Of a stretch of DNA of 42,198 nucleotides, positions 6,135-42,198 are shown in pieces; position 1 is the first letter of the stretch; each line of letters begins with the position of its first letter. Made by a program: the position numbers and the translations under genes. The notes under the pieces were generated by a model. It had not been told where the DNA came from. It saw nothing but the letters and a program-made list of their open reading frames with translations, and did no database searches. This DNA is from a virus: positions 1 through 42,198 of IMG/VR virus record IMGVR_UViG_3300046467_000823; one strand, written 5' to 3'.

Positions 6135-7136
6135 ATGGCATCATTAGCAGAAATAAGGGCGAAGTTAAAATCTCAAGAGGTGAATCGCTCCACTTCTCAA
6201 ACAGGCGGAGACAACGCCATTTATCCACATTGGAATATAAACGAAGGATCAGAAGCAGTAGTTAGGTTCTTACCCGATAAGGATACAAACAATACATTTT
6301 TCTGGACTGAAAGAAATATGATCAAACTACCTTTTGCAGGTATTAAAGGTCAAACTGATTCCAGACCAGTGCAGGTACAAGTACCATGTATGGAAATGTA
6401 TGGCAAAACTTGCCCAGTACTAACAGAAGTTCGACCGTGGTTCAAAGATAAGAGCATGGAAGACATGGGTAGAAAATATTGGAAAAAGAAAAGTTATATT
6501 TTCCAAGGTTTTGTTACAACAAATCCATTAAACGAAGATACAACACCAGAGAATCCAATTAGAAGATTTATAATTGGACCTCAAATCTTTAACATCATTA
6601 GAGGAGCATTACTAGATCCAGAGATGGAAGAAATGCCTACTGATTATGTAAAAGGGGTTGATTTTAGAGTTAACAAAACAACTAAAGGTGGATATGCTGA
6701 CTACTCAACATCTAAATGGTCAAGAAGAGAACGTGCATTAGATGAAACCGAAAGAGCGGCAATCGAAACACACGGGTTACACAACCTAGGTGACTACAGA
6801 CCAAAAGAGCCAACTGACGCAGAAATAAAAATAATTAAAGAATTATTTGAGGCATCTGTAGAAGGTGAGGCATTTGATCTTGAGAAGTATGGACAGTACT
6901 ACAGACCCGCTGGTATGGCTTACCAAAGATCAAAAGTATCTATACCAACAGCAAGTAGACCAGTTGCAACAGAAAAAACATCAGATGTACCAAATTCTGA
7001 AGTTAAACCTGCTGTAACAGAATCTGCACCAGCACCACAACCAACAGCGGCACCGGTAACGGTAGCTCCTGCAGGTGATAGTGCCAAGAGAGCAGAAGAC
7101 ATCTTGAAGTTGATTAGATCTAGACAAGCAAAATAA
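6135..7136 (+). CDS. 32: Single-stranded DNA-binding protein, gp32-like
   Basis: This protein coats ssDNA during replication and recombination and organises UvsX, UvsY and the helicase. The short basic N-terminus (MASLAEIRAKLKSQE) corresponds to the cooperative self-association region. The OB-fold core follows, with FLPDKD, NMIKLPFAGIKG and the reduced metal-site region VPCMEMYGKTCPVLTEVRPW (C85, C93). The segment RRFIIGPQIFNII and an aromatic-rich DNA-binding face follow. The C-terminal third (from about residue 270) is Pro/Ala/Thr-rich and flexible. It ends LKLIRSRQAK, so it lacks the strongly acidic tail of T4 gp32. At 333 aa it is close to the usual length. The very strong ribosome binding site fits a highly expressed protein. 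Confidence 0.95.
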   Translation: MASLAEIRAKLKSQEVNRSTSQTGGDNAIYPHWNINEGSEAVVRFLPDKDTNNTFFWTERNMIKLPFAGIKGQTDSRPVQVQVPCMEMYGKTCPVLTEVRPWFKDKSMEDMGRKYWKKKSYIFQGFVTTNPLNEDTTPENPIRRFIIGPQIFNIIRGALLDPEMEEMPTDYVKGVDFRVNKTTKGGYADYSTSKWSRRERALDETERAAIETHGLHNLGDYRPKEPTDAEIKIIKELFEASVEGEAFDLEKYGQYYRPAGMAYQRSKVSIPTASRPVATEKTSDVPNSEVKPAVTESAPAPQPTAAPVTVAPAGDSAKRAEDILKLIRSRQAK

Positions 7137-7151
7137 TCTGACACTTTACCA

Positions 7152-7177
7152 AGGCCCTGATATTGACGTTAGGGCCT
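7152..7177 (+). terminator. GC-rich hairpin between gp32 and uvsX, possible terminator or RNA-processing site
   Basis: AGGCCCT (7152-7158) pairs with AGGGCCT (7171-7177) across a 12-base loop. It is one of the few GC-rich palindromes in this AT-rich DNA. The following bases (AGGTATGC) are not a U-run, so it is not a standard intrinsic terminator. It could end part of the gp32 transcripts or protect their 3' ends. Confidence 0.45.
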
Positions 7178-7213
7178 AGGTATGCTAATATAAGACATAT
7201 AAAGGATAAAATT

Positions 7214-8317
7214 ATGACAAAAGTATTTGATGCAACTAAATTTAGAAAGAGTATTACAAAATCAATCCAAGGATTAGGTGTAGGATTCAGTGACCCTACA
7301 GATTGGATAAGCACAGGAAACTATGCTTTAAATTATTTAATGACTGGTGATTTTAACAAAGGAATTCCACTGGGCAAGGTAACTGTACTTGCAGGTGAAT
7401 CTGGATCAGGCAAATCATACATAGCGGCAGGCAATATTATTAAGAACGCACAGGATCAAGGTATATTTGTTATACTAATTGACACAGAGAACGCATTAGA
7501 CGAAACTTGGCTACAAGCATTAAAAGTAGACACATCGGAAGATAAACTTTTAAAATTAAGTTTATCTATGGTTGATGACGTAGCAAGAACAGTTTCGGAC
7601 TTTATGAAACTTTATAAAGACGAACACGCAGACGATAAAGAAGGTGCTCCAAAAATACTATTTGTTATAGATAGTTTGGGTATGTTATTAACTCCAACTG
7701 ATGTTAATCAGTTTGAAGCAGGCGACATGAAAGGTGACCTAGGTAGAAAACCTAAGGCATTAACAGCACTTGTAAGGAACTGTGTTAATATGTTTGGTAG
7801 TTGGAACGTAGGACTTATAGCAACAAACCACACATATGCATCGCAAGATATGTTTAATCCAGATGATAAAATATCAGGTGGACAAGGATTTATATATGCA
7901 AGTTCAATTGTAATTGCAATGAAGAAATTAAAACTAAAAGAAGATGAAAAAGGTAACAAAATTACTGATGTACGAGGTATTAGAGCCGCTTGTAAAGTTA
8001 TGAAAACAAGATATGCTAAACCGTTTGAGTCTGTGCAAGTTAAGATTCCTTATGATACAGGAATGGATCCATATAGCGGATTAGTAGACTTATTTGAGAA
8101 AAAAGGTATATTAGTACAAACAGGAAATAGATTAAAATATATAGATTCAAAAGGAAAAGAACACATAGACTTTAGAAAACAATGGATTGGCGAAAAATTA
8201 AATATGCTAATGGCAGACTTTAATATAACTAAAGATGCCGCTCCTAAAGAAGCAGATATAAAAGGAGTAGTTAAAAGTACTAAAACAAAAAAAACAGAAC
8301 CAATTGAAGAGGAATAG
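7214..8317 (+). CDS. uvsX: UvsX, RecA-like recombinase
   Basis: This strand-exchange ATPase drives recombination-dependent replication and repair. Walker A GESGSGKS lies at residues 61-68, followed by LIDTENALDE with the RecA-type catalytic acidic residue. Walker B ILFVIDS has D153. The L2-like region and NHTYASQDMFNPDDKISGGQG match UvsX rather than bacterial RecA. I chose the ATG at 7214 because AAAGGA (7201-7206) sits 7 bases upstream. An in-frame TTG at 7163 would add 17 residues but falls inside the intergenic hairpin. The protein is 367 aa, within family range, with a Lys/Glu-rich C-terminal tail. It is followed at 9 bases by a small ORF and uvsY. Confidence 0.96.
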   Translation: MTKVFDATKFRKSITKSIQGLGVGFSDPTDWISTGNYALNYLMTGDFNKGIPLGKVTVLAGESGSGKSYIAAGNIIKNAQDQGIFVILIDTENALDETWLQALKVDTSEDKLLKLSLSMVDDVARTVSDFMKLYKDEHADDKEGAPKILFVIDSLGMLLTPTDVNQFEAGDMKGDLGRKPKALTALVRNCVNMFGSWNVGLIATNHTYASQDMFNPDDKISGGQGFIYASSIVIAMKKLKLKEDEKGNKITDVRGIRAACKVMKTRYAKPFESVQVKIPYDTGMDPYSGLVDLFEKKGILVQTGNRLKYIDSKGKEHIDFRKQWIGEKLNMLMADFNITKDAAPKEADIKGVVKSTKTKKTEPIEEE

Positions 8318-34132: not shown

Positions 34133-34576
34133 ATGATCCTTATAGCACACAGAGGCAACACTGCCGGCATCAATCCTGAACGTGAAAATACTGTTGCATA
34201 CATCAACGAAGCACTGGAAAAAGGATACCATTGCGAAATAGATATATGTAAATGGGATAACGACCTAGGAAAATTTTATCTAGGACACGACGAGCCAACA
34301 GAAGTAGTTGATCGAGAGTGGTTGAAAGATAACAACTTATGGTGCCATGCTAAAAGTTATAATGCATTAGAAGCCATGATGGCAATGGGAATACATTGTT
34401 TCTTTCACAAAGGAGATGACTACACGCTAACCTCAAATGGTTGGATATGGGCATATCCGGGTATGCCAGGCGGTGTAAAAACAATCGCAGTGCATCCAGA
34501 AAAACTTAATCCTGAAGAAGTAAAAAAATTTGCAGGTATATGCGGAGACAACATAGAAAAATATAAAAATGATTAA
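34133..34576 (+). CDS. Short GDPD-like (glycerophosphodiester phosphodiesterase family) protein
   Basis: GDPD hallmarks are present: LIAHRGN (H6, R7), ENT (19-21 region), EIDI (E35, D37) and YLGHDEPT (H52, D53), i.e. the metal and general acid/base residues. At 147 aa it is much shorter than most GDPDs (about 240 aa). The later barrel strands are reduced to LWCHAK, CFFHKGDD and WIWAYPG. Such mini-GDPD proteins occur next to sugar-nucleotide genes and may act on a sugar phosphodiester or phosphoglycerol substituent. It overlaps the HAD gene by 8 bases. Confidence 0.75.
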   Translation: MILIAHRGNTAGINPERENTVAYINEALEKGYHCEIDICKWDNDLGKFYLGHDEPTEVVDREWLKDNNLWCHAKSYNALEAMMAMGIHCFFHKGDDYTLTSNGWIWAYPGMPGGVKTIAVHPEKLNPEEVKKFAGICGDNIEKYKND

Positions 34577-35105
34577 ACTTATAGTACTAGACGTTGATGG
34601 TATTCTTACAGATGGCAAAAAATATTACAATCGTGATGGTGATGTTGTAATGAAAACGTTTTGTGATAAAGATTGGACAGCAATAAAAAGATTTCGTGCT
34701 ATGGACATACCAGTTGTATTTTTAACAGGTGATCCTTTTAACGAATCTATTGCACGTAATAGAAATATAGATGTTATTGTGAATAGAAAAGATGGCAAAC
34801 ATACAGACAAATCTGAGTTTATAAATGAATTGGCCGAAAAACACAGAATAACGCTTGGCCAAATCGCTTACGCTGGAGATGACATATTTGATATTGAAAT
34901 AATGAAAAAAATTAAATGGAGTTTTTGTCCAATGAACTCTCCTTTAATTGTACAAAATTATGCAGATGTGATAGATGCTAATAGTGGTGAAAATTTTGTA
35001 GTTGCACTTTTTGAATTACTTGAAGATTATAAATTGATTCCAAAAGAAGATTTTGACGAACATCTAAAAAAAGTTTATGCACTAGACGAAAAGGAAAAAT
35101 TTTAA
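34569..35105 (+). CDS. HAD phosphatase of the KdsC/GmhB kind
   Basis: Motif I is IVLDVDGILTDG (D8, D10), with KdsC-style GKKYYNRDGDVVMKTFCDKDW following. Motif II is VVFLTGD, the conserved Lys is near KHTDKSEF, and motif IV is AYAGDDIFD. At 178 aa with no cap it is the size of KdsC (Kdo-8-phosphate phosphatase) and of GmhB-type enzymes that dephosphorylate heptose bisphosphate. It is translated between the GDPD-like gene (8-base overlap) and the kinase (TAATG overlap), so it likely acts in one pathway with them. Confidence 0.87.
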   Translation: MIKLIVLDVDGILTDGKKYYNRDGDVVMKTFCDKDWTAIKRFRAMDIPVVFLTGDPFNESIARNRNIDVIVNRKDGKHTDKSEFINELAEKHRITLGQIAYAGDDIFDIEIMKKIKWSFCPMNSPLIVQNYADVIDANSGENFVVALFELLEDYKLIPKEDFDEHLKKVYALDEKEKF

Positions 35106-35782
35106 TGCACGATATTACTCTATACGGACACATGACAGTTGACAGAATATTTGATGGCTTTGAAGAACGTCAAACATTAGGTGCTATGGCTAATATGTGG
35201 AGAACATTTAAACAAATTGCTCCTGAATTAGATATTGGTTTATGTCCTACATCAATTGGTGAAGCAATGGTGTATATAGATAGAGATTCCAGCACAAGAT
35301 ATTCAAACTTTGTACCTGATATTAAAACAAACAAACCTATTATACAACAATCAAAAATATCACACGCACTTTATATTAACAAACTATTAGATGTAAGTTG
35401 GTTACCAAACTTAACTGGAAAAATATCTGCAGATGTGTGTGCGGGTAAAAAAGTAGATACAAATCTACTACAATATGTAGATTATTTTTTTATTGCTGAT
35501 GAAGATGCGTATGGTGATTTATCAACAATGTGTAAAGATACAAAAGGCTATGTAATACTACATACAAACAAAAGCAGTGTTGTATCTGATGGAAAAACAG
35601 AAACTTCATACAAAATAAACGACTCGTTGTTTGTTGAAAAAAGTAACGTGCTTGGAGCAGGCGATATGTTTGCTAGTAGTTTTTTGTACGGTCTAAACAA
35701 AAAAGATCCTATAGATCAAATACAAAAATATGCACATGAAATTACAAGTAAACTAATTACAAGTGCTAATGAAAAAATATAA
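35105..35782 (+). CDS. Short PfkB-family sugar kinase-like protein
   Basis: The PfkB signature NVLGAGDMFASSFLYGL is near residues 180-196. It supplies the catalytic Asp and the anion hole G-A-G-D. The start TLYGHMTVDRIF resembles the first strand of ribokinases. At 225 aa it is shorter than usual (about 300), with the lid and substrate loops (residues 30-90) trimmed, so activity should be checked. In HldE the PfkB domain phosphorylates heptose-7-phosphate at C1. Overlap with both neighbours places it in the same operon as the HAD phosphatase and nucleotidyltransferase. Confidence 0.8.
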   Translation: MHDITLYGHMTVDRIFDGFEERQTLGAMANMWRTFKQIAPELDIGLCPTSIGEAMVYIDRDSSTRYSNFVPDIKTNKPIIQQSKISHALYINKLLDVSWLPNLTGKISADVCAGKKVDTNLLQYVDYFFIADEDAYGDLSTMCKDTKGYVILHTNKSSVVSDGKTETSYKINDSLFVEKSNVLGAGDMFASSFLYGLNKKDPIDQIQKYAHEITSKLITSANEKI

Positions 35783-36923
35783 TTTACTTCTACCAATTGC
35801 TGGCAAGGCCCAAAGATTTCTTGACGCTGGGTACACAATGCCAAAGCCTTTGATACTTGCAAGAAACAAACACGTAATCGATTGGGCACTAGAATCTGTA
35901 GACTTATTAGAGTGCAATTTAATATTCATGGTAAGAGTTGATCACATATACAATTTCAGCATTGATAAAATATTAAAACAAAAGTTTGGTGACGACATAA
36001 CAATTATTAAAATAAACAAAGTAACACGCGGTGCTTTAGAAACTTGTACGTTGGCAAGAGAATATGTTGATAACGATTTGCCTTTAATAATTTACACTCC
36101 GGATGTTTATTTTGGTCCAAAGTTTTATCCAAATACTATCAACAAAGATGCAGATGGATTCTTATTAACTTTTACTGCTAATAGTCCGGATCATAGTTAT
36201 TCTGAATACGGAGAAGATGGCGTAGTAACTAATGTTGTTGAGAAAGAAGTAATATCAAAAGAAGCAAACGTAGGACTGTATTATTTCCGGACAGGCAAAT
36301 TATTTTTAAAATATGCAGACGAAGTTATTAATAGCAATATGCTTGTTAAAAATGAATTTTATATTGCACCTATGTACAATTTAATGATAAGAGATGGATT
36401 AAAAATTACGGCGGCCAATACTGAAAAGATGCACGTACTAGGTACGCCCCATCAATTTGAATTTTTTGTTAAGCGAGTTATAACAAGATTTGGGGATAAA
36501 CCTATTGCTATTGCTAGTGACCATTCAGGTTTTGAAATAAAAGAATTATGTAAACAAATATTTGGTGAACTTACTTTACCTTATATTGATGTTGGAACAT
36601 ACACAGATAAGGCTTGTGACTATCCGGATTATGTTTTACAGGTTACTAAACTAATTCAATCAAATGAATGTTCTCATGGTATAAGTTTTTGTCGTTCAGG
36701 GCAAGGAGCAAATATTACTGCTAATAAAGTAAAAGGTATAATTTCTGCGTTGTGTTTTGATGAATACACAGCCGAGTATTCTATAAAACATAATTGCTGT
36801 AATCACTTTTCAATTCCTTCAAAATACGTAAATAAAAATGACCTAAAAAGAATTATTAAGAGAATGCTTGAAACTTCTTTTGATGGTGGTAGACATTTTA
36901 CAAGACTTTTTAAACTTTTATAA
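35769..36923 (+). CDS. Fusion: sugar nucleotidyltransferase + RpiB-type sugar-phosphate isomerase
   Basis: I choose ATG 35769 (384 aa), and an in-frame GTG at 35763 would add two residues. Residues 1-240 are an NTP-transferase domain: LLPIAGKAQRF (nucleotide loop), MPKPLI, IYTPDVYFGP (metal Asp) and FLLTFTANSPDHSYSE. Residues 243-352 are RpiB/LacAB-like: IAIASDHSGFEIKELC, YIDVGTYTDKACDYPDY, SFCRSGQGANITANKVKGI and CFDEYTAEYSIKHNCCNHF. The catalytic Cys is kept (FCRSGQG) though CGTG is changed to CRSG. A protein joining isomerisation and nucleotidyl activation suggests one NDP-sugar pathway. Confidence 0.87.
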   Translation: MKKYNLLLPIAGKAQRFLDAGYTMPKPLILARNKHVIDWALESVDLLECNLIFMVRVDHIYNFSIDKILKQKFGDDITIIKINKVTRGALETCTLAREYVDNDLPLIIYTPDVYFGPKFYPNTINKDADGFLLTFTANSPDHSYSEYGEDGVVTNVVEKEVISKEANVGLYYFRTGKLFLKYADEVINSNMLVKNEFYIAPMYNLMIRDGLKITAANTEKMHVLGTPHQFEFFVKRVITRFGDKPIAIASDHSGFEIKELCKQIFGELTLPYIDVGTYTDKACDYPDYVLQVTKLIQSNECSHGISFCRSGQGANITANKVKGIISALCFDEYTAEYSIKHNCCNHFSIPSKYVNKNDLKRIIKRMLETSFDGGRHFTRLFKLL

Positions 36924-39805: not shown

Positions 39806-39864
39806 AAAAGGTTACACCCCTCCTTTTGAATCTGATAATTACAAGCAACAATGAGAGCAATATT

Positions 39865-40065
39865 ATGGGAATACATTATACATATAAAGCCCAAGAAGGC
39901 GCACGAAGAGCTAAAAAACAAGCTAAACAAATGGAACGCCAACAACTCTCTCATAAAAGACAACTCTTAAAAAAGCAACAAACTAACAACGACGACTTGT
40001 ATGTTGTTCCTAAGGGTGTTACACTAACACTAGATATGATAACAGACCCAAGAAGAAACAAATGA
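39865..40065 (+). CDS. Small highly basic protein (66 aa)
   Basis: ATG 39865 is preferred over an in-frame TTG at 39826. The first 40 residues are a charged Lys/Arg/Gln helix (EGARRAKKQAKQMERQQ), and the end is DLYVVPKGVTLTLDMITDPRR. It is likely RNA/DNA- or ribosome-binding by charge. It overlaps the next ORF by 4 bases (ATGA). No known homologue was recognised. Confidence 0.65.
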   Translation: MGIHYTYKAQEGARRAKKQAKQMERQQLSHKRQLLKKQQTNNDDLYVVPKGVTLTLDMITDPRRNK

Positions 40066-40238
40066 TTAAAGAAGAAAAATCATGCCCTTGTGGACGATCA
40101 CCTACAGGAATTTGCGTAGGCTGGCATAAATTGACGGAAGAAGATTATAAAAAAAAGAAAGAGAAATATGATCAATTAACCGAATATGACAAGAGCCGAG
40201 CGTTTCATCCAAGAGCAATTGATGGGTTTGGAGAATAA
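40062..40238 (+). CDS. Small CDGSH-like Cys/His protein (58 aa)
   Basis: This 58-codon ORF starts at the ATGA overlap. It carries C8, C10, S13, C18 and H22 in CPCGRSPTGICVGWH. This is close to the CDGSH iron-sulfur motif (C-x-C-x2-S-x3-P-x-C-D-G-S-H), but one residue shorter between Ser and Cys and with V for D. The remainder is a charged helix (LTEEDYKKKKEKYDQL). A [2Fe-2S] cluster or zinc is plausible. Its TAA and the next ATG share a base. Confidence 0.65.
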   Translation: MIKEEKSCPCGRSPTGICVGWHKLTEEDYKKKKEKYDQLTEYDKSRAFHPRAIDGFGE

Positions 40239-40423
40239 TGGTATTCAGTATTAGCAGTCACCAAATGTATCGATTTCCTTGTATTGGTGTATGCAGTATT
40301 GATAATGAAAGCGGTTATTGTTTAGGGTGCAGTCGTACCGAAGAAGAAGTGTACAAATGGGAAGATGCTAACGTAACTGATGAATGGAAAAAAAAATTGT
40401 TAGAGGAGTTAAAGAAAAGATGA
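40238..40423 (+). CDS. DUF1289-family small Cys-rich protein (61 aa)
   Basis: The DUF1289 signature PCIGVCSIDNESGYCLGCSRT is at about residues 14-34, followed by EEEVYKWEDANVTDEWK. Four cysteines (C-x4-C...C-x2-C) likely bind a metal or iron-sulfur cluster. Bacterial family members are small and of unknown function. It overlaps its neighbours at both ends, in a run of four tiny genes ahead of the radical SAM genes. Confidence 0.8.
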   Translation: MVFSISSHQMYRFPCIGVCSIDNESGYCLGCSRTEEEVYKWEDANVTDEWKKKLLEELKKR

Positions 40424-40596
40424 TAAGCAACTATACAACAAGCCTGGCTACGCATTTATATAATCGTATAGATACGCACCAAAATAATCCTGTAATTAAA
40501 CGGACGCGACCAATGACTTGGCCGGCAGGTTTATATTTTACAGCAACAGATTTAACCAAGTGGATAGCAGAGCATGATAAATCAGAGACTATTTGA
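40420..40596 (+). CDS. Small hypothetical protein (58 aa)
   Basis: ATG 40420 overlaps the preceding TGA (ATGA), making 58 aa. An in-frame ATG at 40384 would lie in the DUF1289 gene. The sequence has TTSLATHLYNRIDTHQNNP and TWPAGLYFTATDLTKWIAEH, with no cysteine. It overlaps the radical SAM gene by 23 bases. Function is unknown. Confidence 0.55.
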   Translation: MISNYTTSLATHLYNRIDTHQNNPVIKRTRPMTWPAGLYFTATDLTKWIAEHDKSETI

Positions 40597-41596
40597 TCAT
40601 TATAACATAGACACAAAGAAGAATTTACAGATTAAAACTAGATGCCCTAGGCCATATGATACTATTCTAATAGATAAAAATGGCTCATGTTATGCTTGTG
40701 AATGCACATCGTGGCTTCCCCAAAGCATAGGAAACTTACAATTAAAAACGTTAGATGATATTATTAATTCCAAAATGCAACAACATTTACAAAGTTCTAT
40801 TACAGACGGGACCTATCGCTACTGCAACAACAAACAGTGTGCTTGGTTGCTTGACAAGAAGAACCCACCGGAATGGAAGGCACAAACTCCCGAAAGAAAG
40901 ATCAAGCATCTACGACTGGCCATAGACGACTCTTGTAACCTGAGATGTCCTAGTTGCAGGAAAGGGCTGATATTCCACAAAGAAGGCTCTGCATATAATA
41001 TTGGAATCAAACTCGCTGACCGCATCAATGAATGGTTGTATGATTACAAGTTTCCTTTGCAAGTCCACATAGGCTCGGACGGTGATCCATTTGCTTCACA
41101 CGTGTACAGGCATTTTATGGAACAGACACCGGAACGTAACAACATCAAATACAGCATACTAACCAACGCACTAATGTTTAAGGAGTTCCACACACGGGTA
41201 CCTTATGTCATCAATAACATGGAAGAACTAGGGGTCAGCATAGACGGAGCATCAAAAGAAACATATGAGAGATTAAGACTGGGCGGCAAGTGGGATAAAG
41301 TAAATGAGAACCTAGAGTGCATATCACAGTTGAAAAAGAAATATGGTTTTAGATTTATACTGCACTTTGTTGTACAGAAAGAGAATTACCATGAGATGGA
41401 AGATATAATCGAACTGGGGAAACAATATGGTGCTGACCGGGTGTGGCTCAATAGAATAACAGATTGGCAAACGTTCACAGACTTCAACTGGTACGATGTC
41501 GTTGCTCCCGCACACCCTGAACACAAACAGTTTCAGGAAGAGTTCGCAAGGATAAAAACAACTAACAACTTTGTGGAGTATGCTACACTAGAATGA
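40574..41596 (+). CDS. Radical SAM enzyme with an N-terminal SPASM-like domain (340 aa)
   Basis: The radical SAM cluster site is DSCNLRCPSC, with C121-x3-C125-x2-C128. A further cysteine-rich block precedes it: C24, C39, C42, C44, C84 and C89, in CPRPYDTILIDKNGSCYACE and YCNNKQCAWL. It looks like a SPASM auxiliary-cluster domain, including the phrase QSIGNLQLKTLDDIINS. SPASM normally follows the barrel, and here it comes first. Later LGVSIDGASKETYERLRLGG is the standard rSAM/SPASM strand. Substrates of such enzymes are peptides or sugars. ATGA overlap with the next radical SAM gene. Confidence 0.87.
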   Translation: MINQRLFDHYNIDTKKNLQIKTRCPRPYDTILIDKNGSCYACECTSWLPQSIGNLQLKTLDDIINSKMQQHLQSSITDGTYRYCNNKQCAWLLDKKNPPEWKAQTPERKIKHLRLAIDDSCNLRCPSCRKGLIFHKEGSAYNIGIKLADRINEWLYDYKFPLQVHIGSDGDPFASHVYRHFMEQTPERNNIKYSILTNALMFKEFHTRVPYVINNMEELGVSIDGASKETYERLRLGGKWDKVNENLECISQLKKKYGFRFILHFVVQKENYHEMEDIIELGKQYGADRVWLNRITDWQTFTDFNWYDVVAPAHPEHKQFQEEFARIKTTNNFVEYATLE

Positions 41597-42198
41597 AACA
41601 CAGAATAAAAAGATTAGACTTTAATGTTGCATATGCTTGTAATTTGTCCTGCAAAGGCTGTATAAGTTTGAGTGACTTTGATCGCAGGGGAGTTGAATCG
41701 TTGAAAGATATACAGGAACAATGTGACACGTGGAGTAAAATACTTGATCCGTCGGTTATATCTATATTCGGTGGTGAGCCGTTGATCCACCCTCGTATAC
41801 AAAAAGTGCTGGAAACGATTAGGAAAGCATGGCCCGATGCTTTGATAAGACTTATCACCAACGGATATCTGTTGCGTAGATATGATCCGGAAATGTGGTT
41901 CGGGTTTGGTGCATTGGAGATGCAAGTTAGCATACACAGACAGGATCATGAGCCAATGATAACAAAAGAGATCAAGCGTATTGTCAACTGCAGGAAAGAT
42001 TGGTCTGCCATAAGAAGCAAAGCGGACGGACACAAGCAACTAGAACTGCACAACAAGGACCTTACAATTTACAAGAGTAAATTTAAAACTTTTGTTATGC
42101 CTTACCGTCTGGAAAACGGAGAGCTAAAACCATTCAAGAGCAATCCTAAAAAAGCACACAGCATATGCGGATCGCCCGACGTACCAATCTTATACCGG
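41593..42198 (+). CDS. Radical SAM enzyme, 3' end cut by window
   Basis: The ORF opens at the ATGA overlap and runs open to the last base. It has the cluster motif YACNLSCKGC (C-x3-C-x2-C) near residue 16, then ISIFGGEPLIHP (the SAM-binding GGEP), LIRLITNGYLL and MQVSIHRQDHEPM, the order expected of the radical SAM barrel. Over 200 residues are visible and the C-terminus is unknown. Being a translationally coupled partner of the preceding radical SAM enzyme, it may work in the same modification. Confidence 0.87.
   Translation, partial: MKHRIKRLDFNVAYACNLSCKGCISLSDFDRRGVESLKDIQEQCDTWSKILDPSVISIFGGEPLIHPRIQKVLETIRKAWPDALIRLITNGYLLRRYDPEMWFGFGALEMQVSIHRQDHEPMITKEIKRIVNCRKDWSAIRSKADGHKQLELHNKDLTIYKSKFKTFVMPYRLENGELKPFKSNPKKAHSICGSPDVPILYR

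Follow-up and report, generated by a model that had tools for sequence, protein, structure and literature searches.

Two small cysteine-rich phage proteins encoded upstream of radical SAM genes: a CDGSH-like family and a DUF1289 protein as possible mobile Fe-S/redox accessories

Introduction

The closest described counterpart of the smaller of the two proteins considered here is the CDGSH/NEET domain (PF09360), which has the consensus C-X-C-X2-(S/T)-X3-P-X-C-D-G-(S/A/T)-H and was originally annotated as a zinc finger (PMC5859297). The second protein falls into an already known family, DUF1289/YdhL (PF06945; COG3313). COG3313 appears in annotations as an Fe-S protein (e.g., PMC9118636), and overexpression of the Escherichia coli member ydhL gives resistance to H2O2 and HOCl (PMC8228696), which fits protection against oxidants. 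Fe-S gene sets are likewise already known in marine phages: the genomes of T4-like marine phages carry many radical SAM genes together with genes for an A-type carrier, IscU and PaaD, and the accessible part of that account does not mention either of the proteins described below (PMC5332604). Pelagimyophages, in turn, possess variable regions with radical SAM cassettes (PMC7029224).

Gene content of the locus

The window, i.e., the whole stretch of DNA that was analyzed, is a virus fragment of 42,198 bases, and the features listed in Table 1 lie on its plus strand. An earlier sequence-only reading had placed two small Cys-rich ORFs, of 58 and 61 aa, directly before radical SAM genes, and both are indeed present at 40062-40423, upstream of rSAM1 and rSAM2; however, "directly" is slightly off, because an extra 58-aa ORF, which that reading had overlooked, separates the DUF1289 gene from rSAM1. 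We refer to the 58-aa Cys-rich protein and its relatives as CGR.

Table 1. Features at the right end of the window, with the basis of each assignment
Feature	Coordinates	Strand	Basis
o66up, 66-aa basic ORF	39865..40065	+	ORF list; ATG at 39865, upstream TTG at 39826
CGR, 58-aa protein, begins MIKEEKSCPCGRSPTGICVGWHKLTEEDY	40062..40238	+	family searches, alignment
CDGSH-like motif CPCGRSPTGICVGWH in CGR	40083..40127	+	putative ligands C8, C10, C18, H22
DUF1289 protein, 61 aa, PF06945, E. coli YdhL family	40238..40423	+	57.8 bits (cut-off 27), E 9.8e-16
DUF1289 Cys4 site, C15, C19, C28, C31	40280..40330	+	invariant in alignment
Extra 58-aa ORF, no family, between DUF1289 and rSAM1	40420..40596	+	ORF list, Pfam
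rSAM1, N-terminal SPASM/twitch-like domain and radical SAM core	40574..41596	+	PF13186 26.5 bits; PF04055 34.3 bits
CxxxCxxC motif of rSAM1 (CNLRCPSC)	40934..40957	+	
rSAM2, truncated by the record end	41593..42198	+	PF04055 37.5 bits

Both radical SAM genes have the CxxxCxxC motif and score above the cut-off of the Radical_SAM profile (PF04055; 29.5 bits). In its domain order, an N-terminal SPASM/twitch-like domain followed by the radical SAM core, rSAM1 resembles the N-terminal twitch radical SAM family NF033640 and SPASM enzymes, but against NF033640 it reaches 46.7 bits, under the curated cut-off of 170.

The o66up-rSAM1 interval is a plug-in site. Its left edge is formed by o66up, relatives of which occupy the equivalent place in L150, L161-L164, L166, L167 and L243/L244, and it comes in several versions: o66up followed by rSAM1 with nothing between (L243, L244), with DUF1289 inserted (L150), with DUF1289 and the extra 58-aa ORF (L161), and, in the window, with CGR and both of these. 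Orthologs of the extra ORF sit at the equivalent place in L161-L164 and are absent from L150 and L243. The rSAM1 of L243 is the closest to that of the window (91.5% identical) and its sister in the tree (100/100); neither CGR nor DUF1289 lies beside rSAM1 in L243 or in L244/L245, and the nearest rSAM1 being bare in this way argues against either small protein being a dedicated rSAM1 partner. No DUF1289 gene was found on the L243-L245 contigs (14.8-45.5 kb), which are genome fragments that may leave a copy elsewhere in the genome, and no CGR gene in the stretches of these fragments that were read; CGR is also absent at every other rSAM1 locus read.

Elsewhere in the window, positions 34133-36923 hold a sugar-activation-like block coding for a HAD phosphatase, a PfkB-like kinase (just below the cut-off) and a 386-aa joined ORF, in which a nucleotidyltransferase domain is combined with an RpiB/LacAB isomerase domain. 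By eye, many glycosyltransferase-, FkbM methyltransferase-, GDP-mannose dehydratase- and asparagine synthetase-like ORFs are spread over 9591-39752, interspersed with T4-like replication and packaging genes; one FkbM was confirmed by a Pfam search.

The CGR family

CGR proteins share the pattern CxCGRSPTGxCxGWHxLTEExY and are widely represented in viral sequences: an alignment-based scan of IMG/VR matched at least 599 stretches, at least 549 of them confirmed, and a scan with the single CGR protein returned 59 loci. Bacterial genome assemblies yielded 13 loci, including some from marine gammaproteobacteria, alphaproteobacteria and Opitutia. At four of the 13, which are gammaproteobacterial, the CGR genes are near-identical, and the gene order around CGR is common to both gammaproteobacterial loci inspected (L061, L064), which suggests that these copies are chromosomal genes. 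Neither Pfam nor NCBIfam has a model that matches CGR, and PHROG gave no convincing model, its one weak match (E 0.00048) being partial and not covering the three cysteines. Collections of phages and plasmids gave no convincing match (one at E 0.4), an absence that is not firm given that records near the window may be missing from them. In one contig, two distinct CGR genes stand side by side (L027:5977-6307).

In an alignment of 66 sequences, C8, C10, R12, S13, P14, C18, G20, W21 and H22 are invariant. Because the scans themselves selected for the motif, its halves were tested apart: with the first half as the query, CxGWH recurs at equal spacing in all 72 distinct homologs, and with the second half as the query, CxCxRS recurs in 48 of 49. 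The sole exception is a bacterial copy (L073, 5001-5084), which reads CSFGRSP, Phe having taken the place of the second Cys; its C-terminus also differs, and it is probably decayed. At the codon level, variation per site is higher at third positions than at the first two: between the window and L002, 22 of 51 third-position sites differ, as against 14 of 102 at positions one and two. Judged by the two half-motif checks, the motif CPCGRSPTGICVGWH is not a chance pattern. The sequence-only reading had made its proposal hinge on the cysteines being retained in homologs; the Cys and His residues are near-invariant both in the alignment and in the two half-motif checks, and therefore this test does not tell against it.

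Relationship of CGR to CDGSH and other cysteine motifs

Like CDGSH domains, CGR shows CxCGxS followed by CxGxH, that is, three Cys and one His in the same order, on a short cluster-type loop. The two differ in that CGR separates the second Cys from the third by seven rather than eight residues, lacks the conserved Pro that shortly precedes the third Cys in CDGSH, and replaces the Asp, mostly by I/V/C, and the S/A/T before the His by W. The Asp and S/A/T positions depart from CDGSH in all 94 distinct CGR cores, whereas Pro and Asp are invariant in an alignment of 30 bacterial CDGSH domains. When this alignment served as the CDGSH profile, hhalign aligned it to CGR with a score of 24.05 (probability 52%; E 1.5e-4 for this one comparison). 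All controls scored lower: 17.7 for DUF1289 (probability 7.8%), 15.3 for SEC-C (probability 3.3%), and at most 17.2 for 41 Cys-containing neighbor profiles; of 40 column shuffles, none exceeded 17.7. As CDGSH outscores every profile and shuffle control, the likeness is more than chance.

The description of the motif as a near miss to CDGSH in the sequence-only reading holds up in that CDGSH is the best profile match of CGR, but does not extend to membership: spacing, the missing Pro, the missing Asp and the Pfam searches rule out a canonical CDGSH domain. Pfam zf-CDGSH gave no match to the CGR of the window at E <= 1, and matched just one of 66 family members, at E 0.034. CGR is thus best termed CDGSH-like on its sequence features, and not a member of that family.

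Two further relationships were considered and rejected. The SEC-C zinc motif (PF02810) has a similar CPCG start, with CxC and later Cys/His ligands, but it is without the GWHxLTEE of CGR, and in addition to its low profile score there was no SEC-C match among the 66 members. A common ancestry of CGR and DUF1289, which share GxCxG[W/C]...EE, is not proposed here: the profile score given above is weak, and a few DUF1289 matches lie near E 0.01. The AlphaFold model of CGR, of middling quality (pLDDT 70.8), consists of helices only, and in the absence of strands no beta cap is predicted. A fold search with the middling models of CGR and DUF1289 (pLDDT 70.3) matched no solved fold, these models being too weak for fold matching.

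The DUF1289 protein and its neighborhoods

The 61-aa protein had been recognized by its DUF1289 signature, and the profile search bears this out. It is a full member of the family with all the invariant Cys, Gly, Arg, Glu and Trp residues: in phage and bacterial members alike, P14, G30, R33, E37 and W41 are invariant along with the four cysteines. Phage members differ from the rest of the family in that their conserved N-terminus is longer (SISSHxxYR) and two residues are inserted behind the conserved Trp region. Neither sequence nor fold comparison found a solved relative of the window's protein.

DUF1289 directly or nearly adjoins rSAM1 in the window, L150/L151 and L161-L167; the adjacency is seen in at least seven distinct sequences (the window, L150, L161 and L164-L167), often with overlapping stop and start codons. 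Elsewhere its gene adjoins those for FeS_assembly_P (L278) or heme oxygenase (L281), and in the L152 group it is flanked by genes with CxxxCxxC motifs, with no Pfam match in the single pair scanned. In L160 it lies two genes from NadA; the latter (L160:6445-7407; 368.5 bits) is a quinolinate synthase, of a 4Fe-4S enzyme family, encoded on a phage contig. Some phage DUF1289 genes are found in lysis-like cassettes, with lysozyme-like neighbors in L297, L300, L303, L316 and L324 and no evident Fe-S link. CGR and DUF1289 adjoin each other in the window, L088 and L095.

Neighborhoods of CGR across phages

In other phages, the neighbors of CGR include QueE-like genes and, directly beside it, genes for FeS_assembly_P (DUF59/PaaD-type), a 7Fe-type ferredoxin, an A-type carrier and NifU-like proteins, as well as redoxins and AhpC accompanied by a CMD-family protein. 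In one lineage, comprising 10 contigs, CGR is fused to a radical SAM protein: the ORF, about 360-390 aa long (radical SAM score 55.8 bits in L106), ends in CGR as its C-terminal tail, and another radical SAM gene comes next. In the L106 fusion (6978-8117) the CGR tail follows right after a SPASM-like Cys region, and the nine further contigs are alike. Many other CGR genes have no Fe-S gene close by and stand among unrelated genes (by eye, uvsY-like, ligase-like and phosphoribosyltransferase-like).

Because a choice of neighbors by eye favors what has been seen, Pfam families were placed over 50 whole CGR records and their distances to CGR compared with uniform placement; the resulting p-values presume such placement and concern few events. 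All 4 FeS_assembly_P matches lie less than 1 kb from CGR (expected 1.1, p 0.003). Of the 5 Redoxin matches, 3 lie within 300 bp of it (expected 0.16, p 8.5e-5), this family having been picked post hoc. There was no significant excess within 1 kb for A-type carriers (2/11, p 0.36) or for radical SAM genes (6/59, expected 3.9, p 0.18) in these records. A general CGR-radical SAM linkage seemed strong with markers derived from neighboring genes but disappeared with whole-record Pfam placement. As a single contig of the phages in question can have as many as ten radical SAM genes, the nearness of CGR to one of them means little. The linkage to radical SAM genes elsewhere, which the sequence-only reading had also named as a check, is mixed: there are the one fusion lineage and the recurring DUF1289-rSAM1 pair, but the proximity of CGR does not rise above background.

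Discussion

We favor a reading, to which we would assign a probability of roughly 45%, in which CGR and DUF1289 are mobile Fe-S/redox accessory metalloproteins, CGR likely bearing a CDGSH-like [2Fe-2S] cluster, and neither being a dedicated rSAM1 subunit. CGR would be a small soluble metalloprotein in which C8, C10, C18 and H22 probably bind one metal centre. This would most likely be a [2Fe-2S] cluster of the CDGSH/NEET-like kind, on a shortened loop that leads into a helix; DUF1289 would provide a separate Cys4 site. Both could be seen as mobile "plug-in" genes gained by T4-like and other aquatic phages, whose products during infection may pass on or buffer clusters or electrons, or shield Fe-S enzymes from oxidants. 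The metal bound by CGR, its transfer of clusters or electrons and the benefit to the phage are what we infer from the invariant ligands, the CDGSH profile likeness, the radical SAM fusion and the neighbors in Fe-S assembly and peroxide defense. Weighing on the other side are the shortness of the motif, the absent Pro and Asp of CDGSH, the middling models, the Fe-S-free contexts, the lysis-like DUF1289 cassettes, and the finding that neither radical SAM genes nor A-type carriers lie near CGR beyond uniform placement.

The sequence-only reading had gone further, proposing that the two proteins could serve the adjacent radical SAM enzymes as electron carriers or cluster donors. Its general part, an Fe-S/redox-related metalloprotein, is favored by the conserved ligands, by CDGSH being the best profile match and by the fusion. 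Its specific part, dedicated carriers or donors for rSAM1 and rSAM2, draws on the recurrent DUF1289-rSAM1 adjacency and on the radical SAM-CGR fusion of another lineage, but it is weakened by the lack of CGR-radical SAM proximity, by the bare rSAM1 of L243 and L244/L245, with no DUF1289 on those contigs, and by the absence of CGR at all the other rSAM1 loci read; we hence regard such a dedicated role as unlikely, indeed the least probable of the readings discussed here, and a general Fe-S/redox accessory as the favored one. A more serious rival is zinc, for which the 3Cys-1His site of CGR would also be suitable. On this account, zinc plays a structural role in both mini-proteins, at the 3Cys-1His site of CGR and the Cys4 site of DUF1289; they would bind a protein or nucleic acid, e.g., a host factor, and the CDGSH likeness would reflect convergence of short Cys motifs. 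Their small size, the zinc-compatible Cys/His spacing, the lack of a fold match, the many CGR genes amid unrelated genes and the precedent of CDGSH itself having once been annotated as a zinc finger (PMC5859297) are all consistent with it, and we consider it a substantial, if minority, possibility. Against it stand the much lower score that SEC-C, a similarly arranged zinc motif, reaches with CGR as compared with CDGSH, the excess of FeS_assembly_P and Redoxin beside CGR, and the fusion of CGR to a radical SAM protein.

A different question is whether CGR is a true CDGSH domain that diverged by common descent, with the Asp, the Pro and a residue of the loop lost along the way. The shared CxCGxS...CxGxH and the significant, if single, profile-profile match could be taken in this way; however, the consistent departure of the Asp and S/A/T positions in every core, the different spacing, the failure of zf-CDGSH to match the window's CGR or more than one member, and a model without strands, and hence without the beta cap, make such descent rather unlikely. 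Somewhat less doubtful, though still tentative, is the proposal that CGR mini-proteins form a new class with a 3Cys-1His [2Fe-2S] site, NEET-like except that the loop is shorter and GWH stands where CDGSH proteins have DGSH. Aquatic phages would be its main carriers, and it would have been recruited into Fe-S assembly, peroxide-defense and radical SAM pathways, once by direct fusion to a radical SAM enzyme.

As far as the searched libraries and literature show, the CGR family, its CDGSH-like profile, the radical SAM fusion and the association with FeS_assembly_P and peroxiredoxin are new. With at least 549 confirmed IMG/VR stretches, a near-invariant motif and no model, CGR would rank among the more frequent small proteins in aquatic phages that lack an explanation, and the radical SAM-CGR fusion, together with the peroxiredoxin and FeS_assembly_P neighbors, offers concrete candidate partners. 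If it is true that CGR binds a [2Fe-2S] cluster, the strict CDGSH signature would not be the sole 3Cys-1His solution of this kind, and phages would bring along their own small Fe-S/redox carriers.
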